A stretch of DNA of 23,231 bases, taken from positions 1-23,231 of the IMG/VR virus record IMGVR_UViG_3300032092_002703; one strand, written 5' to 3'. Under the pieces are notes generated by a model. It did no database searches. It saw only the letters and a list, made by a program, of their open reading frames with translations, and was not told the DNA's origin. Position 1 is the first letter of the stretch; every line of letters starts with the position of its first letter. A program made the position numbers and the translations under genes. The DNA is from a virus. Positions 1 through 23,231 of the stretch are shown here, one piece after another.

Positions 1-2
1 CT

Positions 3-323
3 CCCGCATCGTTTCAAAGTGTTCCATCTGCTCCATCTACGCTACTACCTTACGCAGGTAAAAAGCGTGGTCCCAAATCAAAGGCGGAAAAAGAAGCTTT
101 GGCCGCCAGTGGACAAGGGATTGCTCCTCAAGGTGCCCCCGCTGCACCTTCTCCAAATTCTGCTTCTTATACCGTTCGCGGACTTGAGCCTTCGTTTGTG
201 GAGGCAATTAAGCTTCTAGGCGGACAGCAGTATATGGTTGGGCTGTTGGTCGCTGACCTCAAACGTAGAGGAGTCGTCTACACCACGGTAGACTTGACTC
301 AAATCGGCGGTAAGAGCGAATAA
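3..323 (+). CDS. C-terminal part of an unidentified upstream protein
   Basis: The reading frame is open to the left edge, so only the last 106 residues are seen and the true start lies outside the window. The visible part opens with a Pro/Ser/Ala-rich stretch, then a basic patch (KKRGPKSKAEKEA, from position 60) that loosely resembles an AT-hook but lacks the R-G-R-P core. A second Ala/Pro linker leads to a compact C-terminal segment (GLEPSFVEAIKLLGG...VADLKRRGVVYTTVDL) that looks folded. The gene ends about 50 bases before a rho-independent terminator, so it closes the preceding transcription unit. A basic linker plus small domain would fit a DNA-binding accessory protein, but this is inference; I do not recognise the family. 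An internal TTG at 99 has no good SD and is unlikely to be the start. Confidence 0.7.
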   Translation, partial: PASFQSVPSAPSTLLPYAGKKRGPKSKAEKEALAASGQGIAPQGAPAAPSPNSASYTVRGLEPSFVEAIKLLGGQQYMVGLLVADLKRRGVVYTTVDLTQIGGKSE

Positions 324-370
324 GCTTCATTCCTGGTGAAGTGGGAGTGAAATAAAAACTCAGCAGGGTT

Positions 371-406
371 CAAAGAGTCTCGGTCTTCCCGAGGCTCTTT
401 GTTTTT
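371..406 (+). terminator. Rho-independent terminator after the upstream gene
   Basis: A 13-base arm (371-383) pairs with 389-401 with one G-T wobble around the loop TCTTC, and is followed by TTTTT (402-406). It separates the upstream gene from the terminase gene. It implies that the packaging genes are transcribed either by read-through or from a promoter I cannot identify in the 97-base gap. Confidence 0.88.
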
Positions 407-420
407 GCTATGGTATCCAG

Positions 421-1017
421 ATGGATCACGTAACTAGAATTCCACAGACCCAGCAAATGGTCCCTACTTCACTCACACAGGTCTTTCTTGACTTCCTTTC
501 CAGTGATTCTCTTCAAACGATTCGAAGCGAACTGGCAGCACTCAGGACTCTGGCTGTCGAGTATCGAAACGGGATTGAGAGCCGGCACGTTGCCAACCTC
601 CGTAAAGTAGCCGATGGCATCGTCTCAGAGGCACAGGATCGGTATGAGATGGAAGACTACGAGATGGAGGACTTGAAAAAGATAATTACTGAACACTTGG
701 CAACCGTGTTCGGAGTGTCGGGCTCTCTATCAGCGAAGGATGCCACCGTGATGCTCAATATCCTGACTGGAGTAGTCAAAGCGGAACGCGAAGCCAAGAA
801 AATTATGGAGGAGCAGACACTCCGAATTGAGTGGTCCTCTGAGATTGTCGAGATGCTAAAGAAGTTCCTCGAACTCATCGTCTTCCCAGACATTGAACCA
901 GAGAAGCGAGTAATTATGGCTACAAAAGCCGTCCAGTTCTTCTCGGGTAGCCGTAGCGGGTTGGCAGGTGGACAACAAATTGTCTCACTTGGTAGACGAC
1001 TGGAAGAGGCAATTTAG
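421..1017 (+). CDS. Probable small terminase subunit
   Basis: A 198-residue, mostly helical, charged protein directly upstream of the large terminase; its stop codon shares one base with the terminase GTG start. That position is the classic place for TerS, which binds the pac or cos site and regulates TerL. I see no decisive sequence motif, so the call rests on synteny, size and predicted helicity. Residues 75-84 are a perfect tandem YEMED-YEMED, encoded by a near-identical 15-base duplication (643-672). The start at 421 lacks a clear SD; an internal ATG at 457 (Met13) is no better, so the first 12 residues are uncertain. It could instead be another small head protein. Confidence 0.55.
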   Translation: MDHVTRIPQTQQMVPTSLTQVFLDFLSSDSLQTIRSELAALRTLAVEYRNGIESRHVANLRKVADGIVSEAQDRYEMEDYEMEDLKKIITEHLATVFGVSGSLSAKDATVMLNILTGVVKAEREAKKIMEEQTLRIEWSSEIVEMLKKFLELIVFPDIEPEKRVIMATKAVQFFSGSRSGLAGGQQIVSLGRRLEEAI

Positions 1018-2588
1018 TGTTAGAAGAATTCAAAATTCAGAACTTTCACGTCCCTACACCCTTAGAAGTGGTGTTCCACACTCTTGCAAATGAGATGGCC
1101 AATTCAGCCGCTTTGGCGGATGTCTTCAAGAGAAACTTCAACCCCAATTACAATCAGCGCAAACTGAAAGCTTTGCTGGAGACTTCGACTGTTCCTAAGA
1201 ATCAGCATCTGCACGTTCTTCTCTACGGAGGTGTAGGCTCAGGAAAAACTTGGGCGGCTCTTTCACATATCTTGGACCAGATGTGCAGTCACGCAAACGT
1301 CAACACGTTGGCAATTCGGCGAACTGCCGGTGACGTAGCACTCTCCGTGATGCCAGAGGTTACCGGGTTTCTATCTCGATTCGGAATTCTCCACAAGAAA
1401 AGGGAAAAGCCCGTGCCCCAGGTGGTCTTACCCAATGAGTCCACCTTTTTTATGCGGTCTGATAAATCACTAGTTCAGACTGGGAAAGCCAAATCAGATG
1501 CGCTCGGTTCAACCAAATACTCCTTCGTGTTGCTGGAGGAAGCGGACTCCATCTCGGAGATTCTAGCCGAAACCATCCCAGGCCGTATGCGTGACACAGC
1601 CGGCGTAGACCGTAAGATCATCTTTTACATCTGTAACCCTCCAGGTCGCAATTCGTGGATTTACCGCAAGTGGTTCTTGGATAACGACCCTCACGACCCG
1701 GGCTCCCACTATCGGGCACTACATATGCCAATTGAGGGTAATGCGGAGCACCTGGACCCCGGTTATGTAGAGTCGGTAGACAGAGACTATTCGAACAGCC
1801 CTAGTTCGTATGCCCGCTTACGCAGTGGTGAATTCGGACCAGATACTCCAGGTGACCCAATCTATCAGGCACAATTCAATAGGTCAGTTCACGTAAGTAA
1901 GACTTCATTGGAGTGGAACCCTCGCTACCCGATAATTCGGATGTGGGATTTTGGTTGGAATGGTATGCCCTGCATCATTGCACAGAATGACCTGGACCGC
2001 AGACAGGTTCGGGTCTTAGGGGTTAAGTTTGCGCAGAAGACTCTGTTCGAACCTTTCTTGAAAGAAGTGGTTGATTATACTTGGGAGAAATACCCAGGTG
2101 CGAATTACTTAGACTACACCGACGCGGCCGGCCGACAAAAGACAGGTAACGGACCCAGTTACCACGATATTATGAGACAGAAGGGACTGGAACCACAATA
2201 TTTGATTCACACTATTGGGTATGGTGTGGAAGTAGTGAATAGTTTATTGAGTGAGATGTCCTCCAGGTCAGGTAGAGAAATTCGAGATTCTGGACCTAAA
2301 CCATCTCTCCTTATAGACCCTGAGTGCCACTTGCTGATTGAGATGTTCGAGACAGGTTACTGCAACAAACCTGGAACTCCCCGAGGAGTAGTAGACCCAG
2401 TGAAAGACGGATTTTACGACCACATTGCAGATGCTATTCGATATGGTATAGTCTTAATTCGCAGGTCAGGAACGAATTCAAGCCAGACGCCTGGTCTTCT
2501 CAGTGGGGGCTCAGTTTCCATTGATGGTGTAAGAAGAGTTCAACAACAGCAAATCCCGCGTGGTAGATTCAGTCGAAGGAGAAGGTAA
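1017..2588 (+). CDS. terL: Terminase large subunit (ATPase and nuclease)
   Basis: A 523-residue DNA-packaging motor. The N-terminal ATPase has Walker A GGVGSGKT (71-78), a Walker B-like VLLEEAD (171-177) and a coupling motif IIFYICNPPG (201-210). The C-terminal RNase H-like nuclease supplies three acidic positions: D311 in RMWDFGWN, D369 in YTDAAG and D472 in HIADAIRYG, as in the Terminase_6C type. The size is normal for TerL. The start is a GTG whose first base is the last base of the upstream TAG, which suggests coupled translation. The C-terminus is a Gln/Arg-rich basic tail (QQQQIPRGRFSRRRR). The stop overlaps the portal ATG by one base. Confidence 0.97.
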   Translation: MLEEFKIQNFHVPTPLEVVFHTLANEMANSAALADVFKRNFNPNYNQRKLKALLETSTVPKNQHLHVLLYGGVGSGKTWAALSHILDQMCSHANVNTLAIRRTAGDVALSVMPEVTGFLSRFGILHKKREKPVPQVVLPNESTFFMRSDKSLVQTGKAKSDALGSTKYSFVLLEEADSISEILAETIPGRMRDTAGVDRKIIFYICNPPGRNSWIYRKWFLDNDPHDPGSHYRALHMPIEGNAEHLDPGYVESVDRDYSNSPSSYARLRSGEFGPDTPGDPIYQAQFNRSVHVSKTSLEWNPRYPIIRMWDFGWNGMPCIIAQNDLDRRQVRVLGVKFAQKTLFEPFLKEVVDYTWEKYPGANYLDYTDAAGRQKTGNGPSYHDIMRQKGLEPQYLIHTIGYGVEVVNSLLSEMSSRSGREIRDSGPKPSLLIDPECHLLIEMFETGYCNKPGTPRGVVDPVKDGFYDHIADAIRYGIVLIRRSGTNSSQTPGLLSGGSVSIDGVRRVQQQQIPRGRFSRRRR

Positions 2589-4765
2589 TGCAAGACCATT
2601 TTTTGGGGACAAGGTTCATTGATGATGAGGGTAACCCAAACAGTCCTAGCCTAGACGAAATAAGGCTGAATGATAGGTTGACTCAATTCGAATGGTCTCG
2701 CAGCGACATCGGAGAACGAGCTGCTGAAAACATCCGAATTTGTGAGCGCCTACGTGAGCTGCTTCGTTTGGAAAAGGAACGTAAGTTACCAATTGAGGAC
2801 AAAGCCCGCCACGTTTGGGAGTTATACCACTCCACGTATGTCAGTGACCTGGACAAGGACGACTGGATGTCTCGGAAAAAGTTTCCGGCCACTTTTATGA
2901 CTGTCGAGAAATATGCCGCTGCAGTTGGTAAGGTTCGTGAACAGAACCCGAATTGGTTTGAAGCGGTAGCTATCATACCCCAACAACAAGTTCTAATTAA
3001 CCTTGCAAAGAACTGGACGCAATTCCAATTGGAACACCCAGATGTCGGGTTCAATCAGTTCTTTAGGAATATCATCCGCAATGGACTAATCACATCCCAG
3101 ATGTATGCGATGGTTTCGATGAAGCTGGGAGAGCACCAGACTCCGCACAGCAAACCAGAAACTACAAATGAGCTAATGAGTTCGGAAGCCATTGAATCTC
3201 AGCTCTCTATGTTCCGAAACAACCCGGATATCCGTTCCTCCAAATCTATGCCGTTTATTCAAAACGATGCCACACCTCGGGTTCTCTTGGAGGCAATGGA
3301 CCCCGCCTACGTATGGTTGGACTCCTACGGCCATAACAGATACATTATCTGGCAAACTCGAATTACAACTGGGGACCTTCTTCAACAGGCAGAGGTTCTT
3401 GGGTATGATATGCAGGCTGTTAAAAGGTGTATTGCTCGTGGGTGTGAAGCGGAAGCTTTCGACAATAGGGACTCTTCTCAACAAGGAGTCAATGAAGGTG
3501 GCAATTCAAGAGAGACTCAAGAGGTAATTCTAACTCACCTGGAGGGCACTCTCCCAGACACATCTAACGGCCGTAATCTTTTCACCAAGAAGTATTTGGT
3601 AGTAGCTAATGGGTATGACGTGGTTTACGGACCAGCAGACAATCCATTCTGGGACCAGAAGTCTGCAATTGTTTACTCTCCCTTCATCGAGACTCCCAAT
3701 GCAGTATATGGCAAGTCGCCAATTACTGAGAATGCTGATGCTTTTGAAGTCCGACACGATATGATCAATATGCTGTTGGACTATTTCCAAAAGGTCCTCG
3801 AACCTCCATATGAGGTGAATCGTGACCGCCTAGAAGACAAGGAAGAGGGTTGCATACTCTACCCCAACAAGGCGGTATATGTGAATACTTTCAATGGAGC
3901 AAACGACCCTGTTGTAAGGATCATCTCGCCAGCAGATTTGCCTCCTGGTTTTTGGCAATTCAGCCAATGGTTCCAAACTACATATGCCGAGCACACCGGT
4001 CTTACTCAAGATATGATGGGTATGCCTAGATCCCGAGGTAGGGTCACTGCAGGGGAGTTCAATGCTCGGGAAGCCCAGGGTGGCTCTTTCATTGTTGAGA
4101 TATTCAAGGGTATTGAAGAGCGTCTGCTTCAACCACTAATTCACCGTTTGTTTCTTCGTAGTCTTCAATACACTCCCAATGAACAGTGGGAAGCCTGGGT
4201 ATTAGCTAATAAGGCGAGGATAATTCCCAAACCTCCTGTGAATGGAACCCCCGAACAATTGGAACAATGGAAGAAGTTGGTAGGCGAGTGGGACCGAGTT
4301 CTAACTGCGGTATCGAAGTGGGACAACAGAAAGAGATACGAGCGTTTGGGTGGCTTCTTCCGGTTCGTCGTTCGAATCTTCTCGTCGCTGATGGAGCGCC
4401 AAGCTGTCATCGAGCAAGTTACCTTCTTCCTTCAGACCATTGGAAGAATCCCCCAAGCTTTGCAGAAGGTTCGTATCGAGAAGATGATGATCAAGCTCTG
4501 TATGGCCTTCGGCTGGGACCCGGAAGAGGTGCTAAGTCTCGATTCAGTGGATACTCCAATTGAAGAATTAGATAGTCTCAAAGTGTTGTTGGGAGAGGCA
4601 GTGGAAGACCAGCAGCGCCAAGTCCCGGACTTCTTTGGGCTGGAGAGTATGTTCGGAGGTCTTGCGGAACCCATCCAAGCTGATACTATGGATACGACCT
4701 CGGGCTCACCCTTCCAGGGGACGGGTGCCCCCAAAGACTTCCCAATACCCCCGAAAGGATTCTAG
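2588..4765 (+). CDS. Portal protein (head-tail connector)
   Basis: A 725-residue protein immediately after TerL, with an SD (AAGGAGAAGG) inside the end of the terL gene and a TAATG overlap. The length is in the P22 portal class (725) rather than the T7 connector class (about 535). Supporting features are the central DAFEVRHDMINMLLDYFQ (384-401), a typical portal helix region. The stretch RVTAGEFNAREAQGGS (485-500) and the long helix FIVEIFKGIEERLLQPLIHR (501-520) also match the wing-to-stem part of podovirus portals. A helical C-terminal region (about 630-690) ends in a Gly/Pro tail. It forms the dodecameric ring through which TerL packages DNA. The assignment rests on motifs and position. 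Confidence 0.88.
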   Translation: MQDHFLGTRFIDDEGNPNSPSLDEIRLNDRLTQFEWSRSDIGERAAENIRICERLRELLRLEKERKLPIEDKARHVWELYHSTYVSDLDKDDWMSRKKFPATFMTVEKYAAAVGKVREQNPNWFEAVAIIPQQQVLINLAKNWTQFQLEHPDVGFNQFFRNIIRNGLITSQMYAMVSMKLGEHQTPHSKPETTNELMSSEAIESQLSMFRNNPDIRSSKSMPFIQNDATPRVLLEAMDPAYVWLDSYGHNRYIIWQTRITTGDLLQQAEVLGYDMQAVKRCIARGCEAEAFDNRDSSQQGVNEGGNSRETQEVILTHLEGTLPDTSNGRNLFTKKYLVVANGYDVVYGPADNPFWDQKSAIVYSPFIETPNAVYGKSPITENADAFEVRHDMINMLLDYFQKVLEPPYEVNRDRLEDKEEGCILYPNKAVYVNTFNGANDPVVRIISPADLPPGFWQFSQWFQTTYAEHTGLTQDMMGMPRSRGRVTAGEFNAREAQGGSFIVEIFKGIEERLLQPLIHRLFLRSLQYTPNEQWEAWVLANKARIIPKPPVNGTPEQLEQWKKLVGEWDRVLTAVSKWDNRKRYERLGGFFRFVVRIFSSLMERQAVIEQVTFFLQTIGRIPQALQKVRIEKMMIKLCMAFGWDPEEVLSLDSVDTPIEELDSLKVLLGEAVEDQQRQVPDFFGLESMFGGLAEPIQADTMDTTSGSPFQGTGAPKDFPIPPKGF

Positions 4766-4766
4766 A

Positions 4767-4958
4767 ATGAGCGAGAAATACATTTGCAGACCAACCTCCC
4801 CAGGGAGTGAATACCTGAAAGAAGACCGGGCAGAATTCCTGTCCAAAGGTCGAGGAACAGTTAAGGCAGATGCGGTAATTGAGCGAACCAAAGCCAAATC
4901 GCAATTGCCAAGGTCCGGTTCGCTGTCCTATGTGGACAGCAATCCAGAAATTAAGTAG
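4767..4958 (+). CDS. Small protein of unknown function (63 aa)
   Basis: Begins one base after the portal stop, with AAAGGA at 4755-4760 as SD. The product is basic and polar (starts MSEKYICRPTSPG), has no membrane segment or signal peptide, and contains one Cys. It is the first of three tiny genes between portal and scaffold. Their SDs and back-to-back packing support real translation. I do not recognise the family; a head-assembly accessory role is inferred only from position. Confidence 0.7.
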   Translation: MSEKYICRPTSPGSEYLKEDRAEFLSKGRGTVKADAVIERTKAKSQLPRSGSLSYVDSNPEIK

Positions 4959-4976
4959 GGAAGGAGGAAGCTCAAA

Positions 4977-5153: not shown

Positions 5154-5157
5154 TGTT

Positions 5158-5163
5158 AGGAGG
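5158..5163 (+). promoter_or_regulatory. Ribosome binding site selecting a TTG start
   Basis: AGGAGG lies five bases before TTG 5169. The next in-frame ATG (5181) would be 17 bases away, too far for this SD, so TTG is preferred as the start of the following gene. Confidence 0.7.
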
Positions 5164-5168
5164 GTCAA

Positions 5169-5360: not shown

Positions 5361-6070
5361 ACGGTTTTGGCGAACCCACGGACTTGGCGGCTATGCAGCA
5401 ACGATTGGTTGACTTGCAATTACAGAATGAACAGCTTCGATCCAATAGCAGCAGACAGCACCACCAGCAACAGCAGACCAACAATATGTTGTTGGGTCAA
5501 TTGAATTCAAACCAGAACGAAGAATTCGATTGGGACAAGATTATGCAAGGGGTAAACAACCAGACCACCCCCCAGCAAAACTCAAACGAGATTGTGATTG
5601 ACCGCAAGAAGCTGGCTGAATACACCTCCAAGGTAGTCGAGAAGACTATCGACAAGAAGCAACAGCAATACCAGCAACAGTTGGAGGTTGGGCGCAAAAC
5701 TCAAGAGACTCTCCAACAGCGGTTCGTCAAAGAGCACCCCAAGCTGGCGCAGGACTACCGCGCCCAGGAACTTATCTCTCGGTATTGGAATCGAAGCTTG
5801 GAACTCAACCCCAATATGGACCCTGAAGCACGATATCAGGGAGTTCTTCGAGAAGCGTCAGATACTATGAGCCAATTCGGCTACAAACCGGGGGAGGTAG
5901 ATTTGAACACGCCAGCCTATATGAGCACAGGTAATTCATCTCACAACGTCTTGCAACCTGGACAGCGGATGCAAATCTCCCGAGAAGAGCAACTTGGCTA
6001 CAACCAGAATGAGCATCTCAAAGAGATGAAAGAGCGCCACCAGAAAGTTCTTGACAAGTTCAACCGATAA
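5357..6070 (+). CDS. Probable capsid scaffolding protein
   Basis: A 237-residue, very hydrophilic protein immediately upstream of the capsid gene, the usual place for the scaffold that guides procapsid assembly. It has an N-terminal coiled coil (about 10-30), a Gln/Asn/His-rich low-complexity stretch (about 30-80), a long Lys/Gln helix (about 85-125) and a short basic C-terminal helix (EMKERHQKVLDKFNR). The last resembles the small helical basic tail by which many scaffolds bind coat protein. Translation is coupled to the preceding gene by ATGA. Scaffolds diverge strongly in sequence, so the call depends on composition and synteny. Its last codons contain the -35-like TTGACA of a possible capsid promoter. 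Confidence 0.65.
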   Translation: MNGFGEPTDLAAMQQRLVDLQLQNEQLRSNSSRQHHQQQQTNNMLLGQLNSNQNEEFDWDKIMQGVNNQTTPQQNSNEIVIDRKKLAEYTSKVVEKTIDKKQQQYQQQLEVGRKTQETLQQRFVKEHPKLAQDYRAQELISRYWNRSLELNPNMDPEARYQGVLREASDTMSQFGYKPGEVDLNTPAYMSTGNSSHNVLQPGQRMQISREEQLGYNQNEHLKEMKERHQKVLDKFNR

Positions 6071-6079: not shown

Positions 6080-6124
6080 TGGTTGGGATTATCAGTAACG
6101 GCCAGATACGTCGGCAGGACTCGA

Positions 6125-6169: not shown

Positions 6170-6180
6170 TCCAAAGTGCA

Positions 6181-7119
6181 ATGCCTATCACCAGTGCAGA
6201 TGTAGTTGACCTACGACTACAGCAACTCTCCAAAGACGTTCGTCTAGCTGCCCAGAACAGACAGGTCTTTCGTCAATTCGTTCGCCCTGAAGGCGATTTC
6301 GGAGCCCATATGGGCGACGAGGTCAAGTTCATCACCGTGGGCAATATCGCCGAAGAAGGTCGTGAGGTCTCGGAGGATGGTGACATCCCCCAGGGAACTT
6401 TGCCGATTCGTGCCAAGCTGGCAACTGTCCGTGAATACCGCCTGGAAATTCCTTGGAATGACCGGGCTTCTTTGTTGTCTCAACTCAGTCTTGAGTCAAT
6501 GATCATCCGTCAGTTGACCAACAACGGGATTCAGAAGCTGGACAAATTGAGCGCCGTCCCCTTTAGGACGTGTGAATTCGTTTACACCCCGACCGGGCCG
6601 ATTGGCAACAAGAACTTCACTCTTGGAACGGCCGGCGTGGCTTTGGCCGTAGCGTCTCGCCCAGTATCGGCGTATGACCTGAAAAATATCCGTGGATTGA
6701 TGAAGTCCACGTATAACATCCCCGGGTTTGCAGGTTCCAGTCAGTATGTCGGGATTGTAACCGAGTCCACTTCTCGTTCGCTCAGTGATGACCCCGAGTA
6801 TGTGGACATTATGAAGCGGTATAAGCCGGCTCAATTGCTCAACGGAGAGATGACGGAGTATTACAACTTCAGAATTCTCGAAGAGAACAACTGTCTCAAC
6901 AACAACCTACCCAATGGGTGCGGTGAGTGCGTCTTTTTCGGTGACGACCCGGTTGTTGAATTGGAGTTGTATCCCTTCGAACTCCAGCGGGCTCTCGCCG
7001 AGAGCTACGGCCGAACCAAGGCTATTTGCTGGGTTTGGTATGGTGGTTTTGCTCGCACTTGGAATTTTGCCACCGATGGTGAAATTCGAATGATGCGAGT
7101 CGGTTCTCTACCAGCCTAA
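6181..7119 (+). CDS. Major capsid protein (HK97-fold, N4 gp56-like)
   Basis: A 312-residue coat protein in the canonical place after the scaffold. Several stretches fit the N4 gp56-type coat family. One is REYRLEIPWNDRASLLSQ (84-101) with the helix that follows, which ends IQKLDKLSA (117-125). Another is YVGIVTESTSRSL (189-201), then DDPEYVDIMKRY (203-214). NGEMTEYYNFRILEENN (221-237) matches that family's conserved 'nGEiG..gvRfiE' region. The C-terminal strands (KAICWVWYGGF, EIRMMRVGS) also fit. It assembles the icosahedral shell. The 110-base leader holds a possible promoter and an SD-masking repeat. Family identity is from motif memory; a coat role is more certain than the exact family. 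Confidence 0.85.
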   Translation: MPITSADVVDLRLQQLSKDVRLAAQNRQVFRQFVRPEGDFGAHMGDEVKFITVGNIAEEGREVSEDGDIPQGTLPIRAKLATVREYRLEIPWNDRASLLSQLSLESMIIRQLTNNGIQKLDKLSAVPFRTCEFVYTPTGPIGNKNFTLGTAGVALAVASRPVSAYDLKNIRGLMKSTYNIPGFAGSSQYVGIVTESTSRSLSDDPEYVDIMKRYKPAQLLNGEMTEYYNFRILEENNCLNNNLPNGCGECVFFGDDPVVELELYPFELQRALAESYGRTKAICWVWYGGFARTWNFATDGEIRMMRVGSLPA

Positions 7120-7140
7120 TAGGTAAGAAAGGATAATTCA

Positions 7141-7682: not shown

Positions 7683-8351
7683 ATGTATGACGTGAAGAAA
7701 CCGCACGAAAATTACGGCAATCTGATTTGGCAGGACGGAGTTCTATACGCCTTGGATGGTACGATTCTCCCCAAGGACCCCGTTAAGCTGGTTGCCAAAG
7801 GATACAATCCTCAAATCAGCCTTCGCCAAAAACTCTTTGGATACTCGGAAGAACTGCGAATTCAAAAAGAGTATGAAGAGAAGATGCTGCAGATTGAACA
7901 GATGAAAGCAGAGCGCGAGGAAAACTTCCGGCGCAGCTTACAGGCGCTACAGGAACAAGCGTATTCTCAGACCAGCCAAGTCACCCAGCAACAGGCTTGG
8001 GAAGACTTGATGCCTGACCCAGTTCAGTTGGATGTCCCAATTCTTCCTGAAGAGCTGGTGAGTGGAGCCCTGAATGAGATGATCGACCAGGGAGTTCCTG
8101 CGAACCAATTGCCTACCCGAGAAGAGGTGGAGGTGCAGCAACCGACGTTCATTCCTCCCCCTCCTCCGCCTTTGGCTGCGCATCTTGGAATTGATGGAGA
8201 GCCGGCTCACCAGGTTGTGGGTGGGGGTGCGCCTTCAACCAATTGGGTGTCCGCAACTCCTCCTCCGGTAATTCCTCCTTTTGAGCAAGTGGCTGCCGCT
8301 GCCCAACAAAAACCAAAAGTCAATCGTCGTCAAAGGGTGAATATTGACTAA
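7683..8351 (+). CDS. Coiled-coil, proline-rich structural protein
   Basis: A 222-residue protein in three parts. A small N-terminal segment (1-50, NLIWQDGVLYALDGTILPKD) looks folded. A charged coiled coil follows (about 52-105), then a low-complexity tail with six consecutive prolines (158-163), further Pro clusters (193-199) and a basic end (KPKVNRRQRVNID). It is the first gene after the terminator; GAAAGG lies 11 bases upstream. Its stop overlaps the next ATG (TAATG). Position suggests a head-tail connector accessory or minor structural protein; the family is not recognised. Confidence 0.7.
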   Translation: MYDVKKPHENYGNLIWQDGVLYALDGTILPKDPVKLVAKGYNPQISLRQKLFGYSEELRIQKEYEEKMLQIEQMKAEREENFRRSLQALQEQAYSQTSQVTQQQAWEDLMPDPVQLDVPILPEELVSGALNEMIDQGVPANQLPTREEVEVQQPTFIPPPPPPLAAHLGIDGEPAHQVVGGGAPSTNWVSATPPPVIPPFEQVAAAAQQKPKVNRRQRVNID

Positions 8352-9259
8352 TGACTGTTGCAGAGCTAAAGACAAGCGTATTTGAATTATTCCCAAGACG
8401 TAATCCAGTGATTATGTCTCGCTTCGATGCGGATTTTAAATCCTGGATGGATGACCTGTCTGTGGTTATCCCTTGGAATTGTCTGCGCGTGTCTCCTCTG
8501 CAATTGGAAGAAGTCAGTTCAACCTGGCCTTTGAATCTGGCGGCCCCGACGTTGAAGTCGGGCCGCTGGATTGCCCCCGGTATTATGGTAACTCAAGCAG
8601 GGATTTCTCGATACGAATTCGAGACCCCACACGAATATGAAGAATGGGAAGATTCCTCTTGGTGGCACGAAACCCAAGTTTCTCAGTGTCACTTTGTCGC
8701 TTTGCTGGATGAAGAAGGTCGGTTTGTTCGTGAATTATTTAGTGAAAGTCAACAAACCTCGATACGTCGCAGTTCTCGCAAAGTTACGGAACGTGGCTGT
8801 CCCGTCGAATACTTTGTCACAACCAATGATGTAGGCCGGTCATTCCTAAATCTTCGTCCAGTCCCGGATGAACCTTATTTGTTGGCAGTTGGGTTTCAGC
8901 GAATTAAGCCTGTGAGCTACATCCCCCCAAGTGAGTCTGCTTCTTTGCATCCGCTACTCACCAACCACAGAACCGTGGTCCAGACCACTTGCCTACACAA
9001 GGTTAGTATGTTTTTCGACGAACCCAATATGCAGCAGAATTACGAGCGTGAATTATATGGTTCCCCTCCCAAAGGCTTGCAATTGGCAATTATGGAAAAA
9101 ACTGGGCTCATCGGGTATGCCTATCACGAGCAAATGAAACTCCAAACCCAGAAGAATCAAACAATACAGTTTTACCGTTCGGAAGCTCAAGCGATGGGTC
9201 GTGAGAGACCATCTGGACAAAGCCGACGGAGATACCCTAACAGGTGGGGGTATAGGTAA
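8351..9259 (+). CDS. Probable head-tail adaptor or tail-tube-A type protein
   Basis: A 302-residue protein immediately before a propeller-like tail protein. That is the place of T7 gp11 or P22 gp4-type adaptors, which sit under the portal. It begins with a helical segment, then a Trp-rich beta region (WEDSSWWHETQ) and a section LLAVGFQRIKPVSYIPPSES that resembles the extended region of such adaptors. A basic tail (SRRRYPNRWGYR) closes it. It is longer than T7 gp11 (196 residues). Translation appears coupled on both sides by TAATG junctions, and its own SD is weak. The functional call is from position and overall pattern. Confidence 0.5.
   Translation: MTVAELKTSVFELFPRRNPVIMSRFDADFKSWMDDLSVVIPWNCLRVSPLQLEEVSSTWPLNLAAPTLKSGRWIAPGIMVTQAGISRYEFETPHEYEEWEDSSWWHETQVSQCHFVALLDEEGRFVRELFSESQQTSIRRSSRKVTERGCPVEYFVTTNDVGRSFLNLRPVPDEPYLLAVGFQRIKPVSYIPPSESASLHPLLTNHRTVVQTTCLHKVSMFFDEPNMQQNYERELYGSPPKGLQLAIMEKTGLIGYAYHEQMKLQTQKNQTIQFYRSEAQAMGRERPSGQSRRRYPNRWGYR
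8540..8566 (+). other. Intragenic GC-rich hairpin
   Basis: GCGGCCCCGAC (8540-8550) pairs with GTCGGGCCGC (8557-8566), giving 10 base pairs with one bulged C and a six-base loop. It lies inside the adaptor gene and has no following U-run, so it is not a terminator. It may be chance or an mRNA structure. Confidence 0.45.
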
Positions 9260-13796: not shown

Positions 13797-15767
13797 GTGG
13801 ATAGTTTTGACAATTACGCTAGGCTTGGCGCTGAGGTTTTAGCAAGTGCTCCTCCCGAGGAGAAAAAAGCTGTCCCCAGCAGATTTGTTGGACCGTTGCC
13901 GGAAGCGCCTTCGGCACCTGTCCAGGTAACTGCGGCTGAAGCTGCTCGGGCGATGGCCCGTCCTGCCATCGGCCCAATGCCAGATGAAATCACTCCTGAT
14001 GAATTAGAGAAAGCCGCAATGGCTGCCAAACTGATGGGGGCTGATGATTTGATTATCTCTAATTCAACCCCACAGACAGTTCGTAAGTTGGCTGCTGAAG
14101 CGGACAAGATGTCCCGAATTGCAGCAGCCCGAGCAGCATATCAGGAGAACCCAACTCAGTATGATATGAGCACCGCAAACAATTTGGATGGTGCTATCTC
14201 TGCTTGGGTCCACCAAAAAATGGGAGAGGTCGGTTCTCCTAATGCGCCTGCACCTACTGTGGTCGATCCTTTTGCAAAGGCGGCTGCACCCCAACGGAAT
14301 ACTCCCGCTGCCAGACCTCAACTTGGTAATTCAAATACCGGTTCTGGGTATGATGATTACACTCCGCCAGTGGGCCGTGCTTCTGATGGACCAGCTTCTG
14401 CTTCTCCACGTATGGCGGCCCGATCACGGGCAGCATCCCCCACATCTGCAATGCAAAATCAAGGACCTACTTTGGAACAAAATGCGGCTGGGGCCGCCAA
14501 AACTGGAACTCGGAAAAAACCTGGTTTCGATGAAAGAGTGGGTCGTGTAAGCCAAGAATCAAAATCGAATTATACGGACAGAACTCCTGGTATGCCCTTA
14601 CCCACAGTCAAAAAGCCAGCATTGCCTGCTAAGCCTGGGGATGTTCAATTCAGGTCAAACACTCCGGCAGACCGTTTTGAGGAGGCTGACCCCAACACTC
14701 GATATGTCAAGACGCAGGAGAACCCAGTCAGGGTTCGTCGGCGAACTGACCCAGAAATGGCAGATTTGGCCGCCCAAGAGTCTGAGAAGCGGAGAAGAGC
14801 TAATAACGTATTTGCAGGTATGAATTCAATGCAGGACATACTTGGTGCCGGCTCAGTTGGTGCTAGAAGTGCTCCTCGTGGAACCACACCCCCGCGCCAG
14901 CAAACTTCTGGAAGAATTTCCAATAGTCCGGGTAATTTGTATAGAAACACTCCCACATCTGCTCCTTTGAAAAATCCAATTAAGGTTGATATGAAGTCTC
15001 AACAACCTCCTAACAAATTCTCAGGAGTAACTCAAGCTACCAAAGGAAGACCGACCAGACCAAACGTCGAGGCTAAACCCAATGACGTAATGAAGATGCC
15101 TAGTGCTACTGGGGTATCCAAAAGAGAAAACAGGAATCAAGTTCCTGCTGGTGGGGTTGTCCGAGCAGCCAGCACCAAAGGAGTTGCAAAAACTTCTGCG
15201 GAAACTGCTTTGAAGGCGGCGCAAAATCCTAAATCGGTAAAAGAGAGAAACTTGCCTGCACGTAAGAACGCAATTCCAATGGGCTCATCCCCACCAGTCC
15301 AGAACCCCGCAATTCCCCTCAGAAAAGAGGGAGCCAAACAAAGGTCAGAGGCCGCATCCAAAGGGCTGAGAACTAGCCCTGTTTCCAATAAATCTGGTTC
15401 GCGTAATCCCGAAGACTATTTTGGACCTAGGACTAAGGAAGGAGATGAAGCAGCAAAAAAATATATGCCAAAACTCAGTCGAATAACTGAACTTTCAAAA
15501 ACACCAGAAGGTCAAAGACAATTGAGAGAAGAGAGAAAGAACTACAAAAACTCCCCAGAAGGAAAGGCAGAATTTGAAAAGTCTTCTCAAGAATATAACA
15601 GCCGACCATACGTAAAAGAATATGACAATAAAGTAGCTGAGTTGAAGCAAAAAAGAAGAAGTGGTGAAATTACACTTCGTCAATTCATGGATTTGAAGAG
15701 GGATGCGTCATCTGAAAAATTGAAAAAACAAGATGACCACATTAGTCGATTGAGAGGTCGCCAGTAA
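13797..15767 (+). CDS. Long disordered basic virion protein candidate (656 aa)
   Basis: Starts VDSFDNYARLGAEV (read MDSF...) and has a short helical N-terminal part, including an Ala-rich helix near residues 55-110. About 450 residues rich in Pro, Ser, Lys, Arg, Asn and Ala follow, with almost no hydrophobic core and many basic clusters (TKGRPTRPNVEAK, VKERNLPARKN). The last about 115 residues change to a charged helical end (SPEGKAEFEKSSQEYNSRP...). Codons become visibly A-rich from about 15,400. The composition suggests a flexible protein packaged with DNA or a linker in the ejection apparatus; no family is recognised. Confidence 0.75.
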   Translation: MDSFDNYARLGAEVLASAPPEEKKAVPSRFVGPLPEAPSAPVQVTAAEAARAMARPAIGPMPDEITPDELEKAAMAAKLMGADDLIISNSTPQTVRKLAAEADKMSRIAAARAAYQENPTQYDMSTANNLDGAISAWVHQKMGEVGSPNAPAPTVVDPFAKAAAPQRNTPAARPQLGNSNTGSGYDDYTPPVGRASDGPASASPRMAARSRAASPTSAMQNQGPTLEQNAAGAAKTGTRKKPGFDERVGRVSQESKSNYTDRTPGMPLPTVKKPALPAKPGDVQFRSNTPADRFEEADPNTRYVKTQENPVRVRRRTDPEMADLAAQESEKRRRANNVFAGMNSMQDILGAGSVGARSAPRGTTPPRQQTSGRISNSPGNLYRNTPTSAPLKNPIKVDMKSQQPPNKFSGVTQATKGRPTRPNVEAKPNDVMKMPSATGVSKRENRNQVPAGGVVRAASTKGVAKTSAETALKAAQNPKSVKERNLPARKNAIPMGSSPPVQNPAIPLRKEGAKQRSEAASKGLRTSPVSNKSGSRNPEDYFGPRTKEGDEAAKKYMPKLSRITELSKTPEGQRQLREERKNYKNSPEGKAEFEKSSQEYNSRPYVKEYDNKVAELKQKRRSGEITLRQFMDLKRDASSEKLKKQDDHISRLRGRQ

Positions 15768-15768
15768 G

Positions 15769-17904
15769 ATGCCACAGATTTTCCAGCCTCAAGTCCTCCA
15801 AGACCGTAATTACAATAACGTAAACGCGAACGGTGTTTTTCCCCAACTGTTTGCACAAGCAGCAGCACCTTTGGCGGCTGAGGCTGGAAAATTCATTGGT
15901 AAAGAGGTCTTTGGGTTTACTACTCCTCAAGAAGAACAGCAAGAGATTGCGAATGAGGAGGCACAGCGCAAGATTGCCACCGACCAGGTAATTGCTGCTC
16001 GTGGGATGTCCCCAGAACAACGGACTATTTTGAATGATAGGTTGAAGGCTTCTGGGAAGTGGACCGGTATTGACGACCCCGCGTTACAGGGAACGGCAGA
16101 CCAGGTTGATGAGACCGAGCAATACCGACGACGCAAACAGGAATTGGGTTATGACTTCAACACGGGCAAGTGGAACGAAGAACTCGACCCCTTCCCAGAG
16201 GTCAAGCTACCTTCTCAGCAACCCCAACAGCCTCGAATGGAGGGTTCGACAGTAGGTGAATTCACTTCTCCTACGTCGGACTTGATTTCGGCTGGCCAGT
16301 CCCAGCTTGAGTCCGGGGTAGCGGCAGATGCTGCGACCTTTGACTTCACCCAGGCAACCAACCCGGATTACCTCAGCACCTACCTTCCCCAGGTCAAGGA
16401 CAAGCTTCCTCCGCGTCAGATGAGCATTGAGGAACAACGTCGGGCCGGCTCCATTGCAGACAAGATGATGGCGCTTCGAGACAATATGAAAATTTTTCGT
16501 TCCCCGGAGTTGTCCAGTCCTGAGCAGATTGCACGAATTCACTCAACCGCCCGGTCGGTAGTTTCTGACATTGACGTGTTGGTGGATGGATACAACGATA
16601 CCCACAAGCCGAGCATTTCAATTTCAGCTTACCCGGGTGGGTCTCTTGGGGCTGTCCAGGACATCAACAGGTTAGCTGTTCTAACTTCAGCCCCTTTGCA
16701 AAACAGTATGACTCAGGGCCAACGAGATGCGGCTGCTAAGGAAGCGTCTGCAATTATCAATCGAATGCAAAAACTGTCGGCTTACCAACTCACCCAGTTA
16801 ACTGAATTAGGTAAGCGCATACCTCAGAACGAGGTTGCTGCAATTCTTGAACAAGACAAAGCTGGCAAGGCTTTGCAAATGAAAGCTCGTGAAATTGCCA
16901 ATGATGAACGTCAAACTTCGGTCAACTTGATGAATGCAAATGTCGGAGTTCAGCGCCTGGTGATGGAACAGAACGAGAACCTCTGGCGTAGAGGATTCGA
17001 TATGTCCAAACTGCAGGTTGACTATGACCAGAACTTGATCTCCCGTGAGCGAATTGCGGCTGACCTAGGGATTTCTAGTAATCGCAACGCAATTGAATAC
17101 CTAACTTTGCAAGAGTCAGCTTTGAATCACAAAATTCAAAATGAGTTGACTGCTCGTGATCAAGACTTGCGCTGGGCGACCGAACAACAGAAAGCACAAT
17201 TACGTGGTATGGGTAAAACAGCCGCCACCCTCCAGAACCAAAAACTAATTCAAAGTCAGATTGAGGCTGCTAAGCTTCTGGAAAACGCAGGGACTCCCAA
17301 GCAACGAGAAGCGGCCAATACCATCAAAGACAACATTGCAGATTGGGCTACTTTAACTGGGGCGTCGCTGTTGGCTACTGAAGCCAATAAACCTGGAAAT
17401 CTGCTGGCTCAGGGTTGGCAGGCTTTGACTTCTGCAGTGACCGGAAACAGGGCGGCAGCCGGCCCCACCACCCCAGGCCCAATTAGTAATTCACAAGGCC
17501 CTGCTATCTCTGAGCAAATCGCATCTGAATACAAGAACATCTTGGGGGAGTCTCTGCGAAACGGAACCCAACTGTCGATTGAATTCTACAATGCGGCTAA
17601 TCACATCAAGGCTCAGCGGGATGGTTCCGTTGCTTTAGATGATGGAGCTTTGGTCCCAAATGGGACTAAGGTGGTCCGCAATGGTAAGGTGGTGGAGTCC
17701 CGAGATGAAACCCTTCATAGCATTGCTAGCAAAGTATCCACAGCCACTATTCAAGGTAAGGTCACCAAACTGAGTATGTCTCAATTCCTCGACTTGGCAG
17801 CCCCAGGCGGGACTACTCTTGCTCAGGCTCTTCCTACGGCGGATGAGCGCAAACGGGCTTACCAAATCTACCTCAACAATCTGAATTCTGCAGGTGTCAA
17901 ATAA
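15769..17904 (+). CDS. Helical internal (ejection) virion protein candidate (711 aa)
   Basis: A 711-residue, almost entirely helical protein directly upstream of the transglycosylase-bearing giant, the place of T7 gp15. It starts with MPQIFQPQVLQDRNYNN and an amphipathic Ala-rich helix (FAQAAAPLAAEAGKFIGKE). It then has a long series of Gln/Glu/Ala helices, including a coiled-coil-like block at about 355-490. The end (SMSQFLDLAAPGGTTLAQ...) looks compact. There is no signal peptide or catalytic motif. GAGAGG lies about 11 bases before the ATG. Its stop overlaps the next ATG (TAATG), linking the two products. Likely part of the trans-envelope DNA channel, by inference. Confidence 0.7.
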   Translation: MPQIFQPQVLQDRNYNNVNANGVFPQLFAQAAAPLAAEAGKFIGKEVFGFTTPQEEQQEIANEEAQRKIATDQVIAARGMSPEQRTILNDRLKASGKWTGIDDPALQGTADQVDETEQYRRRKQELGYDFNTGKWNEELDPFPEVKLPSQQPQQPRMEGSTVGEFTSPTSDLISAGQSQLESGVAADAATFDFTQATNPDYLSTYLPQVKDKLPPRQMSIEEQRRAGSIADKMMALRDNMKIFRSPELSSPEQIARIHSTARSVVSDIDVLVDGYNDTHKPSISISAYPGGSLGAVQDINRLAVLTSAPLQNSMTQGQRDAAAKEASAIINRMQKLSAYQLTQLTELGKRIPQNEVAAILEQDKAGKALQMKAREIANDERQTSVNLMNANVGVQRLVMEQNENLWRRGFDMSKLQVDYDQNLISRERIAADLGISSNRNAIEYLTLQESALNHKIQNELTARDQDLRWATEQQKAQLRGMGKTAATLQNQKLIQSQIEAAKLLENAGTPKQREAANTIKDNIADWATLTGASLLATEANKPGNLLAQGWQALTSAVTGNRAAAGPTTPGPISNSQGPAISEQIASEYKNILGESLRNGTQLSIEFYNAANHIKAQRDGSVALDDGALVPNGTKVVRNGKVVESRDETLHSIASKVSTATIQGKVTKLSMSQFLDLAAPGGTTLAQALPTADERKRAYQIYLNNLNSAGVK

Positions 17905-20900
17905 TGGATGGATTAGAGAACGTCGGTAGTGAATACCAGTATGAAGCACTACCCTCCAGTGCATTTCCAGCAAAAGAAGAAGCCCCACAGAAACCGGCTG
18001 AGATTCCAACTGAGCCGGTCGTTTCTGATTTCAAACCACAAGCAGCCCCCACACAGTCACAAGCACCAGCGGCACCGGAGCCGAGTCAAGCGCCTGCTGC
18101 CGACGAAGATTGGAAAGTGAATTTAGGGCTTGAGATTGAGAAGCTCGCGAACCCAGCCAAATTCACCCCCCCGCAACAGGCTCAACTAGCAATTAATGAC
18201 CCTGAATTAGCTCAGGCACTTCAGGCGGATATTAGCAAGTTAGCACACAACACGGACTTGCCAGAATACCCTGCCCGGGCTCCCAACCCAAAGTCTTACG
18301 AACAGTCTGCGGCTGAAGCCCGTAATCAGGGCAAACCCGTAGAAGAATGGCAAAACGGTTGGCAGGTTCCGGCCCGCAAGAAGCTGGCTGAGTTGACGAA
18401 ATACGCCCAGGCTGGAGTCAATTTGAATGGGTTGCGAGAGCCCGTTCTAAATGGCCTCTACGACCTACACAGTTTGGCCAAACGCAATGGGTATGAATTA
18501 TCCATTGGGTCTGCGGCGGATAAACACGGTCCAGAGTCACATCACTTTGCAGGCAATGCTGTCGATGTGAATATCAAGAAGAACGGTGAATGGGCCGATG
18601 AGGACCCCAAAATTCTTGAATTGATGAAGAAGTGGGCTTGGCAGTCGCAATTCGCCACTCTCTATGATGAAACCCACGAATACGATAGCAAAGGCAGACG
18701 GGGCCGACATAAAGGAGGCAATGCTCATTTCCATCTTGCTTGGTATACGGACGCCAAGAACGCTCCTGGAGCATACCAATTCTTTGACCGTGACGAATCC
18801 AAAGAGAAAAAGGCTGTCCCACACCAGGGGGCTAAGAATCCAAAGTTCGCAGACGTGGCTCCATTTCTTAATTCACACGACCTGAAGACTCCGGTCGGCA
18901 AGACAATTCGAGTAGCTGAATTGGAACAACTCGACCCAGACATTTTTGCCAGGATGATTTCTACTGAATCAGACTTCAACTTCAAGGCAGTGTCTCCCGT
19001 TGGGGCTTTCGGCTATGCCCAGCTAATGCCGCAAACTGCAGCAGAACTAGCCAATCAGATGGGTGTCCCTGAAGCTGAATTACGTAACAACGAGATGCTC
19101 AATTTGAAAGCTGGTGCTCGTTACCTGAAGAATATGCTGACCAAGTTTGACGGTAATTACGCCCGTAGCCTGGCAGCATACAATATGGGTCCTGGAGCGA
19201 TGGAGGCTTTCCTCAATGGGAAACAATCCCTCCCCAGGGAAACCCGTGATTACGTCTACAAGATTCTCAAGGAAAAAGACCCACAGGTTCTCACGAGTGA
19301 AAAGGTAGTCGAGGAATACCTACGTAAGGGACTTGGCCCAAAGCTGGGTGCACAGAAAGCTTCCAATGAGGTATCCCTGTTCCCAGCCGAGGCTGCCCGT
19401 TCCTACTCCCAGCGGTTTGCTGAATTACTTAGAACTGCTCACGATACATTTGTCGGAGACGTTCCCAAAGGTGAGAAGTCTAACTTTAATTTAGTAGGAC
19501 GTGCATTAGAGCAAATCCCTGGACTGAGAGACAACAAGACCTTCCAAAACTACAACGCGGCTTTGGATTCAGCCTTTACCGCCAGAACGGGGGTATTCGC
19601 GGATATTCACAATATGCTCAGCGGGTTTGTCCATACGGCTACTCCTTTTCACATAATTCCCGACTGGAGAAAGCAAGCCCGTAAAGAAGGCGAAGTATTG
19701 ATGTCAGGGGTTATGGACGAAATGGGTCCGGGTCTGCCCGGTTGGTTGATGCGTGGCGACCGGCAATTGGTTACCTCTACCCTACCTTGGCTTGCGGGTT
19801 ATGCTGTTGGGTTTTCCAATATGCTCAAAGGGGCCCAACTACTCGGGACTGCAACAAAGAACGTCCCAGTGATTGGTGGGCTCTTTGCCGGTTTTTCGGA
19901 AGCGGCTGCAATGGAGGGTTCTGCCACTCCGATGATTACCCGATACCTGAATCACACACTCAAAGGCAAAGGAAATTTTGTTCGGGATATGGCGGCTCTG
20001 GGTGGGCTATTTACCACCAACGAAATTGGGACCGGCCTGGTCGAGTGGATGCAGAATTCAGTAGATGGAAGTGACACCAGAGATTTCAAAACGGCCGCTT
20101 GGGATTCAATCAAACACGGTATGGTTGCAGGAGGCCTGATGACCCTTGGGTCAATCGCCTTCCCAGCCGTGCTGCAGAGTGCGATGAGTGGGTTAGTCCG
20201 CAAGCCTGAGATGCTTGGGTCTGTAGCACAATTTATGAATTCGGGTTCTCCGGCGGTTCAGACTTTAAAGCGCACGGGTGTGGGAGCGGTGACAGCACCT
20301 GTAGTAGGTATGGGCTTTATCAATCCTATTGCTGATCTGCTTGGAATTGATATGGACCCGGGCTTGCGGGAATATGCCACCGTTGGTGCTGGGGCCGGAC
20401 TATTAGGCTCCGGTCTTAAGATGTATGGGGATGACATCCTCAAAAAGATGGGTGGAGCTAATTCACCAGTTATGCAAACCATCTCCCGCAACTTGGACAA
20501 GTGGTGGGGCAAGCTGGATGATGTTTACAAGAACTCGTTCACTGATTCAGCGATGAGTGCTGCAGAAGCAGTAATGCAGGCAGCCGAGAAACAAACTCGC
20601 CTGGCAAAGGCAAAAGTCTACTCCGGTAAAATGCGTCAGACTGCAGATGAGTTAGAGCCAATCGTTGCTGGTGCTGAGAGCACAATTCAAATGAAGCAAG
20701 CTGAATTACAAAAGGCCGAGCAACAGGTTCAAGCCGTCAAACAACAAGTCCAAGATATGCAAGCGCAAATGACTCCTGAACAACAGGCCTTTGCGCAGGA
20801 ATTCAGACAGCAGGCGTCTGAGAAGGCACAATTGGTTCAGCGTAAAGCACAGGTCGAGGAGCAGTTACAGCAAGTCGCTCAGAATCCGAATGCTCCCAAG

Positions 20901-23231
20901 CAAGTGATTACTCAGATCAAGGCGTCACTCAACAGTATTCAGAACGACCTGAAATCCAAAGACACCGCATTGGCAGAGATTCTCAAAGGATACCCCCAGG
21001 TTCTTTCGGCTGTTAAAACCGAAGACCAATTAGCAATGCGTCTGAAGCAATTTGAAGGTCTCAAGCAAAACACCCTCAAAGAGATTGAGCCCATCATTCC
21101 ACAAGTGGTGGCTGGTCGAAAAGCAGTAACTGCATTCAGACAGGAGTCAGACAAGTTTGAACGGCTGCTGAAGAACGCGCCCGAAACCTTTGATGACCCC
21201 AATTTTAAATACTCGACTGGGAATGCGCTTCACGACTTGGAGATGACTGCGGGTGAGATACCCGATTATGTCCCAGGCATCAACAAGCAGTTAATTGCCG
21301 ATACCTACAACCAGGTGTGGCGGGATTCAGTCACGAGTTTGGTGGACAACTTCCAGCACACGGGCAAATACTTTGATGAAGCTCCTTTTATGCTTGCCAG
21401 AAAGACTATCTCAGAGTCTGCTGCAAAGTATGGTGTTCAAAACGATGTGGCTGTCGGTGGACTAATCGAGACCTTTACTAGAAAAGCTAATTCAAAGCTA
21501 GATGACCTAGCTTTTGAAACCTTTGGTGAATTGGGTCAAGCGAACAGTAAAACCAGAGAAGCCCGTCGCATCCTTCAGGAACAAGCAATCCAATACAATC
21601 TGCCGGGACCTCGCAAGAGAGGGACTGCCGCCCCGAAACTGGGGACTGTTCACGCAGACGTAATTCTACACGCTGCCAAACAACAAGGCTTCAACTTGGA
21701 ATCACCCAAGTTGATGGCTATGGCCGACCGGGTTGTTGAGGAAGGGGTGAAAGGTAATTGGAAAGACGCAAGTTACCTACCCTCCCCAGCCGAGATTCGA
21801 CCCACGGGTAAAACCGTCAAAGGCCGGAGAACTACCCACAACAATTACAAAATGAACGAGGACATCGTTGCACAGGCAATGGCTGCCCAACGTATGGGGG
21901 ATGCCCACGTCCCAGTTCTTTTGAATTCAAATACCAAAGCTGGTATGAATGATTTAGCCGCGTGGGCGGTCACAACCGGAGACGACTACCTAAATCAGTT
22001 GAAGCAATCTTACAAAGAAGCCGGAGAGAACCTGGCTAAATTCTCCACGGAAGCCCGAGCTACGGATGTGATGGGTAAAATGGAGGGTGTCACTGCTCCG
22101 AATGACCCCGGGGCACTGGCAGTCCTCAATAAGTCTTTGTATGAGGAGCAGTTGAGCGGTCGTCTTTTAGAAGAAGCTCGCGAACTGACAAATAACCCAA
22201 AGCTGCAACAAGAAGACGTGCTAAAGGCAATTCACGCCAAATACTCGGGCAAGAACACTGCACCTATGCTGGAAGAGCTAATCTCCCAGGAGGTCCGACT
22301 AATTGGTCAATTGGGTCAAAACATTGCAGGCACGGGCAAGGTGGTCGAAGCTGGTAAGGCCAAGACTTCCAAGTTCCAGGTTGGTGACGTTCTGTTCGGT
22401 AAAAACGAGACCGGCGCGTATGTGATCGACAAAGACGGTAAAATCCAAAACCGAAAGATGAATTTTTTCACGGGTGGATCTGGTCGTCAGCGTTTGCAAT
22501 TCGGGGACTTGGCAGAAGATGCCTACTCCGACCCAGCGGTAATGTCTGCTGTTCGTGAATTGGTTGGTTCAGATGCGTCTTCTGGTCTCAATAGTGAGAT
22601 ACTTCAATTACAGCAAACCAAAGACCGAATTAACCAAATTGTAGAGAGTGACCAAAAACTATCTCCTGAGCAAATATTGGGGTATGTGACTGAAACTTGG
22701 AGCAAGCAAGTCTACTCTCGTCGCAATGCAATGAATGAGGTTGCGTCCAACTTGACTACTTCGTTAGACGACACCCTTCAGAAAACGTATGACTTGCTAC
22801 CCAAGAATTCAGCGGGTATTCCCGCCATCTCGAAAGACCAGTTCTTGATGGACGTAGTTGACACCATCGAAGACTTCTCCAAATACAAGGAATTCACCAA
22901 GAACTATGGTGACGCAGGGAAGCAAGCTCTGTCGAGTATCCTGACTGCCACGGAAGCGATGACGGACTGGAAGCGGGCAAGCCCATTCCTCCAGTCATTT
23001 GCTCGTGATAGTTACTCAATTCACTCCTTCCCTGAGCGAGCAGCCTATTTGGCTTTGAGGCGTGGAGAGGAGATGAGTCAGAACCTATTGAGCAACTTAG
23101 ACTCATCTTTGCGCTCAATTCCTACACTTGCAAAAGCCCGACAGATGAAGGAATCGGCCGAAGCTTTGATAGCTCCCTTGGGGATGACCAAGGGCGACTT
23201 CCTTAAAATGTCAATTGCTGACCGAGCAAGG
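17904..23231 (+). CDS. Giant ejection protein with M15 peptidase and SLT transglycosylase, partial
   Basis: Open from ATG 17904 to the window edge (1776 codons, no stop); the 3' end is missing. The N-terminal 60 residues are Pro/Ala-rich. Residues about 172-290 resemble a zinc M15-type peptidase: SHHFAGNAVD (212-221) fits S-x-H-x-x-G-x-A-x-D, and AHFH (274-277) supplies the last ligand. Residues about 337-457 are an SLT lytic transglycosylase: catalytic Glu355 in ISTESDF, VSPVGAFGYAQLMPQTA, and AAYNMGPG (424-431). Gly/Ala-rich hydrophobic segments follow (about 627-675, 740-765, 790-835), then a coiled coil (about 885-1030) and a possible small beta barrel (about 1478-1540). The order matches T7 gp16, which opens the cell wall during DNA entry. 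Confidence 0.88.
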   Translation, partial: MDGLENVGSEYQYEALPSSAFPAKEEAPQKPAEIPTEPVVSDFKPQAAPTQSQAPAAPEPSQAPAADEDWKVNLGLEIEKLANPAKFTPPQQAQLAINDPELAQALQADISKLAHNTDLPEYPARAPNPKSYEQSAAEARNQGKPVEEWQNGWQVPARKKLAELTKYAQAGVNLNGLREPVLNGLYDLHSLAKRNGYELSIGSAADKHGPESHHFAGNAVDVNIKKNGEWADEDPKILELMKKWAWQSQFATLYDETHEYDSKGRRGRHKGGNAHFHLAWYTDAKNAPGAYQFFDRDESKEKKAVPHQGAKNPKFADVAPFLNSHDLKTPVGKTIRVAELEQLDPDIFARMISTESDFNFKAVSPVGAFGYAQLMPQTAAELANQMGVPEAELRNNEMLNLKAGARYLKNMLTKFDGNYARSLAAYNMGPGAMEAFLNGKQSLPRETRDYVYKILKEKDPQVLTSEKVVEEYLRKGLGPKLGAQKASNEVSLFPAEAARSYSQRFAELLRTAHDTFVGDVPKGEKSNFNLVGRALEQIPGLRDNKTFQNYNAALDSAFTARTGVFADIHNMLSGFVHTATPFHIIPDWRKQARKEGEVLMSGVMDEMGPGLPGWLMRGDRQLVTSTLPWLAGYAVGFSNMLKGAQLLGTATKNVPVIGGLFAGFSEAAAMEGSATPMITRYLNHTLKGKGNFVRDMAALGGLFTTNEIGTGLVEWMQNSVDGSDTRDFKTAAWDSIKHGMVAGGLMTLGSIAFPAVLQSAMSGLVRKPEMLGSVAQFMNSGSPAVQTLKRTGVGAVTAPVVGMGFINPIADLLGIDMDPGLREYATVGAGAGLLGSGLKMYGDDILKKMGGANSPVMQTISRNLDKWWGKLDDVYKNSFTDSAMSAAEAVMQAAEKQTRLAKAKVYSGKMRQTADELEPIVAGAESTIQMKQAELQKAEQQVQAVKQQVQDMQAQMTPEQQAFAQEFRQQASEKAQLVQRKAQVEEQLQQVAQNPNAPKQVITQIKASLNSIQNDLKSKDTALAEILKGYPQVLSAVKTEDQLAMRLKQFEGLKQNTLKEIEPIIPQVVAGRKAVTAFRQESDKFERLLKNAPETFDDPNFKYSTGNALHDLEMTAGEIPDYVPGINKQLIADTYNQVWRDSVTSLVDNFQHTGKYFDEAPFMLARKTISESAAKYGVQNDVAVGGLIETFTRKANSKLDDLAFETFGELGQANSKTREARRILQEQAIQYNLPGPRKRGTAAPKLGTVHADVILHAAKQQGFNLESPKLMAMADRVVEEGVKGNWKDASYLPSPAEIRPTGKTVKGRRTTHNNYKMNEDIVAQAMAAQRMGDAHVPVLLNSNTKAGMNDLAAWAVTTGDDYLNQLKQSYKEAGENLAKFSTEARATDVMGKMEGVTAPNDPGALAVLNKSLYEEQLSGRLLEEARELTNNPKLQQEDVLKAIHAKYSGKNTAPMLEELISQEVRLIGQLGQNIAGTGKVVEAGKAKTSKFQVGDVLFGKNETGAYVIDKDGKIQNRKMNFFTGGSGRQRLQFGDLAEDAYSDPAVMSAVRELVGSDASSGLNSEILQLQQTKDRINQIVESDQKLSPEQILGYVTETWSKQVYSRRNAMNEVASNLTTSLDDTLQKTYDLLPKNSAGIPAISKDQFLMDVVDTIEDFSKYKEFTKNYGDAGKQALSSILTATEAMTDWKRASPFLQSFARDSYSIHSFPERAAYLALRRGEEMSQNLLSNLDSSLRSIPTLAKARQMKESAEALIAPLGMTKGDFLKMSIADRAR

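Follow-up and report, generated by a model that had tools for sequence, protein, structure and literature searches.

Excess of GAATTC in an uncultured tailed phage as the by-product of an enriched and evenly spaced AATT-centred word

Introduction

Cyanobacterial chromosomes contain the hyperabundant palindrome HIP1 (GCGATCGC) as well as alternative hyperabundant motifs, and these motifs change along with methyltransferases, such that in some strains HIP1 has been replaced by words matching newly gained methyltransferases (PMC4390886). What such hyperabundant words do in a genome is a long-standing puzzle. A short palindrome is also needed frequently, and within a limited distance, where Dam methylation of GATC marks DNA for mismatch repair, which would set a limit on the length of the gaps between sites. 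The opposite behaviour, the avoidance of palindromes in phages and their hosts, was reportedly described by Gelfand and Koonin in 1997.

Here we describe a stretch of 23,231 bases (hereafter the window) that covers the block of structural genes in an uncultured tailed phage, and in which the EcoRI site GAATTC is in excess. Another contig from this virus, IMGVR_UViG_3300031758_001024 (L001), is identical to the window across positions 1-12499 and extends it by 3,335 bases upstream, where two further genes of interest are found (Table 1). The Lar-like gene of that extension also matches TIGR03655, with a score under that model's cut-off, and the methyltransferase-type gene beside it gave no match when compared with solved structures and NCBIfam models.

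Table 1. Positions of genes and short words in the window and in the upstream extension (L001).
Feature	Position	Strand	Match or remark
Terminase large subunit	1017..2588	+	phrog_2, 9e-32
Portal / head-tail adaptor protein	2588..4765	+	phrog_332, 1.5e-15
Major head protein	6181..7119	+	phrog_1357, 6.5e-8
Virion structural protein, resembles phage stabilization protein	9259..10839	+	phrog_3287, 1.4e-14
Giant internal or tail protein, SLT transglycosylase domain	17904..23231	+	at least 1776 aa, open at window end
Adenine methyltransferase-type gene	L001:747-1430		phrog_799, 9.6e-34; ~1.9 kb upstream of window
Lar-like antirestriction (restriction-alleviation) gene	L001:202-747		phrog_599, 3.6e-5; adjoins methyltransferase gene
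AATT sites (n = 225)	1..23231, whole window		mean gap 103, longest gap 351
GAATTC in GAATTCA only	1026..1031; also 2474, 7858, 10685, 13469, 16535, 20054, 20799, 22805, 22890		
GAATTC in TGAATTC only	1830..1835; also 6574, 17581, 17883, 20237		
GAATTC in full dyad TGAATTCA	5503..5508; also 9444, 10045, 10417, 11297, 14822, 16258, 21923		
GAATTC with neither flank	437..442; also 1384, 4833, 5522, 6872, 8615, 9265, 11531		
CATG, sole copy	15686..15689		
GTAC, sole copy	7759..7762		

Results

The GAATTC excess and the share of it that is due to codons

The original prediction, made by eye, had counted 30 copies of GAATTC and described a roughly fivefold excess; our recount gives 31 (1.33 per kb), all 19 of the positions it listed are correct, and the excess over base composition is 5.5-fold (5.6 copies expected). 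The expected number rises to 8.2, 16.3, 23.9, and 30.8 under Markov models of order 1, 2, 3, and 4, respectively, so that each order accounts for a further share of the excess, as would be the case if a neutral, sequence-context-dependent bias of mutation or repair, arising from the phage or host polymerase, favoured flanked AATT as part of a genomic signature. Conditioning on 5-mers, by which the original prediction was to count as refuted, does make the GAATTC excess vanish at order 4, but only because the 5-mers GAATT and AATTC are themselves over-represented. The row and column totals of a table of the bases flanking AATT likewise predict 30.8 copies of GAATTC.

Amino-acid composition, codon usage, or codon-pair preference could also raise the count, and synonymous codon shuffling within the annotated genes does bring the expectation from 5.6 up to 12.9±3.1. 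This is well below the 30 copies observed in those genes (about 2.3-fold), and the same shuffles give 144 AATT against 214 observed and 45 AATTC against 91 observed. As had been predicted, the copies fall in all three codon frames, and each frame is raised (14, 6, and 10 copies compared with 5.2, 2.6, and 5.2 in shuffled genes), so that a cause in amino acids or codons, which had been doubted from the outset, is hardly credible and was rejected; together amino acids and codons explain about half of the fivefold excess. In a stricter null, synonymous codons were swapped within genes, trinucleotide counts were held near those observed, and the same forbidden words were penalised as are missing from the window. 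Under this null GAATTC is expected 15.5±3.1 times (null maximum 25) against 31 observed, a 2.0-fold excess, and AATT about 169 times against 219 observed. The twofold excess of GAATTC at the DNA level is therefore genuine after control for protein, codons, trinucleotides, and avoided palindromes, and it continues beyond the window, with 3 GAATTC and 29 AATT in the 3.3 kb extension of the same virus.

The enriched unit is AATT with particular flanks

The 6-mer that stands out most under the strict null is TGAATT/AATTCA, with 79 copies compared with 28 expected (z 12), and it is enriched both within and outside GAATTC. TAATT is similarly raised (91 compared with 42, z 9.7), and the enrichment of AATT is 2.8-fold after TG, 1.5- to 2.6-fold after any base followed by T, and 1.9-fold after CG, whereas AATT with A on its 5' side is depleted. 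The enrichment is independent of reading frame and is found on both strands. Two-sided sites are more enriched than one-sided ones, the full dyad TGAATTCA being present 8 times against 1.8 expected under the strict null, TGAATTA 11 times against about 1.3, and TAATTCA 11 times against about 1.6, and this fits two half-sites that act independently. The enriched unit is thus AATT preceded by TG or T and followed by CA or A, a T(G)AATT(C)A dyad. Such a graded flank preference is also what a context bias of mutation might produce, though the words one base removed from TGAATT, which that bias might be expected to deplete, mostly lie at 0.55-1.1 of expectation and show no strong depletion.

The original prediction had taken GAATTC itself as the unit, and GAATTC might indeed be functional as an EcoRI-type methylation motif or as a binding or packaging site, since it is the only six-base palindrome in large excess in a genome from which many others are absent. 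The copies with neither a 5' T nor a 3' A do not bear this out, because they number 8 against 7.3 expected, and the excess is confined to copies inside TGAATTC or GAATTCA (31 matches against 10.0 expected). The related words that do not contain GAATTC, TGAATT[AGT] and [ACT]AATTCA, show an equally strong enrichment (48 against 18.2), and AATT and its flank frequencies already predict 30.8 copies. A function of GAATTC as such is very improbable, and we rejected it as the unit; the GAATTC excess is a by-product of the preference for T(G)AATT(C)A. The originally suggested role in methylation or protein binding is possible for the AATT dyad rather than for GAATTC.

Avoidance of other palindromes does not generate the AATT excess

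The expectation that phages tend to lose 6-base palindromes is borne out, as 29 six-base palindromes are absent from this genome, and those among them that are free of CATG, GTAC, and GATC would together have been expected about 80 times; CAGCTG is one of the absent palindromes (0 against 10.5 expected). Within the predicted genes CATG occurs once against 52 expected and GTAC once against 68 expected, and GATC is partly lost (21 against 76 expected), so that recognised palindromes are far under a codon-controlled expectation. The 23 GATC sites that remain in the window share no obvious preference in their flanks, and GCCGGC shows a mild enrichment (12 against 5).

Avoidance this extreme raises the question of whether the AATT words are simply what is left over when restriction sites are emptied from the genome. 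When the null keeps codons and only forbids those words as well, however, it yields 13.0 GAATTC and 145 AATT, which is no higher than without the forbidden words. Avoidance of the identified palindromes is not the cause of the AATT excess, and we consider this explanation improbable and rejected it.

AATT sites are evenly spaced

The gaps between AATT sites have a coefficient of variation (CV) of 0.76, compared with 0.97±0.07 in the null (minimum 0.80), and the longest gap is 351 bases where the null gives about 745 (minimum 475). Among 82 common tetramers AATT ranks first in evenness, and, once other pieces of this virus are set aside, the AATT gap CV of the window is the lowest found in 89 sequences. 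Both halves of the window are even when taken separately (p about 0.004 each), and the evenness persists when the 3.3 kb extension is added. The evenness was spotted in the course of the analysis, while the tetramer had been set beforehand by the GAATTC finding. AT-rich runs that do not contain AATT show no even spacing, and no peak was found at a period of ~10-11 bases for AA/TT or AATT. A single packaging site, one of the functions originally considered, is a poor fit to 225 AATT sites lying evenly across all genes and on both strands. On the concatenated coding strand GATT is unusually clustered (gap CV 1.51 compared with 0.98), with none from position 22000 onward.

This spacing bears on the mutational explanation, because a bias in mutation would make AATT more frequent and leave the gaps random; acting site by site, it would not space AATT evenly. 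An excess combined with a limit on gap length is instead the pattern to be expected if selection favoured having a site always close at hand.

Relatives, comparison sequences, and the host

Across the 178 other sequences compared, from phages and bacteria, the z-score of TGAATT has a mean of -0.30, an s.d. of 0.96, and a maximum of 2.5, compared with 11.4 in the window. In the environmental phages (L012-L091) the trend is opposite to that of the window, with AATT falling on average below its codon-shuffle expectation (pooled ratio 0.72). IMG/VR was searched with a terminase alignment and with seven proteins of the phage, six of them encoded in the window and the seventh being the upstream methyltransferase; the only close match was L001, the same virus, along with distant relatives of the terminase and methyltransferase at about 20-33% identity, and a search of 84,980 genomes with the head protein found no related prophage. 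The AATT bias is not shared by cyanophages or by the terminase relatives.

A cyanobacterial host is plausible, since CAGCTG is absent from the window and also from the coding DNA of most cyanobacterial stretches sampled (L096-L103, L176-L192, and L196-L235): it is missing from 33 of the 53 cyanobacterial stretches in which at least 3 copies were expected, several of these coming from one genome and so not all independent, compared with 1 of 59 stretches from other bacteria. CAGCTG is likewise missing from 10 of 45 environmental phages, and its absence is a possible host marker. Restriction systems are unusually numerous in bloom-forming cyanobacteria (PMC8262939). In the cyanobacterial stretches sampled TTCGAA, GTCGAC, GGTACC, and ACGCGT are also low; of the palindromes low in cyanobacteria, TTCGAA (9 against 10.8) and CTGCAG (14 against 10.9) are nevertheless kept in the window.

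No host was matched by signature among 80 genome loci (from an EF-Tu search), nor among 60 genomic stretches that came from cyanobacteria and a few other organisms. Counts of GAATTC in about 190 cyanobacterial genomes and of TAATTCA in about 290 (up to 292) also gave no host match; GAATTC reaches at most about 0.54 per kb in these genomes compared with 1.33 in the window, and at a similar GC content none of the cyanobacteria read reaches the TAATTCA density of the window. Some cyanobacteria do show a mild enrichment of AATTC, about 1.15- to 1.7-fold, which lends something to the idea of a context bias of mutation or repair, but the bias itself was seen in none of the genomes or phages sampled. 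Taking the Markov series, the flanks, the spacing, and these comparisons together, we regard a neutral context bias as the main rival explanation, possible if less than probable.

Discussion

The explanation that we tentatively favour, at somewhat short of an even chance, is that a recurrent AATT site with dyad symmetry is under selection because a DNA-binding or DNA-modifying protein uses it, and the GAATTC excess would be the shadow of that selection. That selection rather than mutation is at work, and that there is any protein partner, we infer. A protein recognising AATT would have to encounter its site regularly as the genome is traversed, and the phage would thereby keep at least one AATT per ~350 bases, as may hold for HIP1 in cyanobacteria. 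Such a protein, of the phage or of the host, would most likely be a DNA methyltransferase or else one that organises or repairs DNA, and one candidate partner is the upstream adenine methyltransferase-type gene that lies beside the Lar-like gene. In its most specific form, namely that the phage keeps an AATT-centred dyad no more than ~350 bases apart for a regularly searching protein, as a HIP1-like word of viral origin in a genome whose restriction sites have mostly been removed, the proposal is somewhat unlikely. It counts against the favoured explanation that the enrichment, at about 2-9 fold, is modest beside that of HIP1 in its host genomes, and that the flank preference is soft (TG, CG, or any T before AATT) and defines no crisp word.

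If selection for a spaced AATT site is true, then a small phage genome with a measurable spacing limit would provide a compact system for studying hyperabundant words, one in which a role in methylation, repair, replication, or DNA packaging could be asked about. The same genome shows the extent to which a phage can shed restriction sites.

Compared with described systems, the phage word resembles several in part. The EcoRI site GAATTC is the word originally counted, but it is not enriched here once the TG- or CA-flanked copies are set aside, so that it is not enriched whatever its flanks. The phage word is comparable to Dam-dependent marking at GATC, which would likewise give a limit on gap length, and unlike it in that the site is AATT. 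With the restriction-site avoidance known from phages and hosts (PMC4687349) this genome shares the near-total loss of CATG, GTAC, and 29 hexamers and the partial loss of GATC, whereas its AATT-centred words go in the opposite direction and are not produced by the avoidance. Closest in kind are HIP1 and its replacements, which are likewise short dyad-symmetric words with hundreds to thousands of copies per Mb within genes and on both strands, and like them the phage dyad stands far above codon and k-mer expectation in all frames. The HIP1 word GCGATCGC has 0 copies in the window, where GATC is avoided, and the phage word differs from it in its carrier, its AATT core, its graded flanks, its 2-9 fold enrichment, and its limit on gap length.
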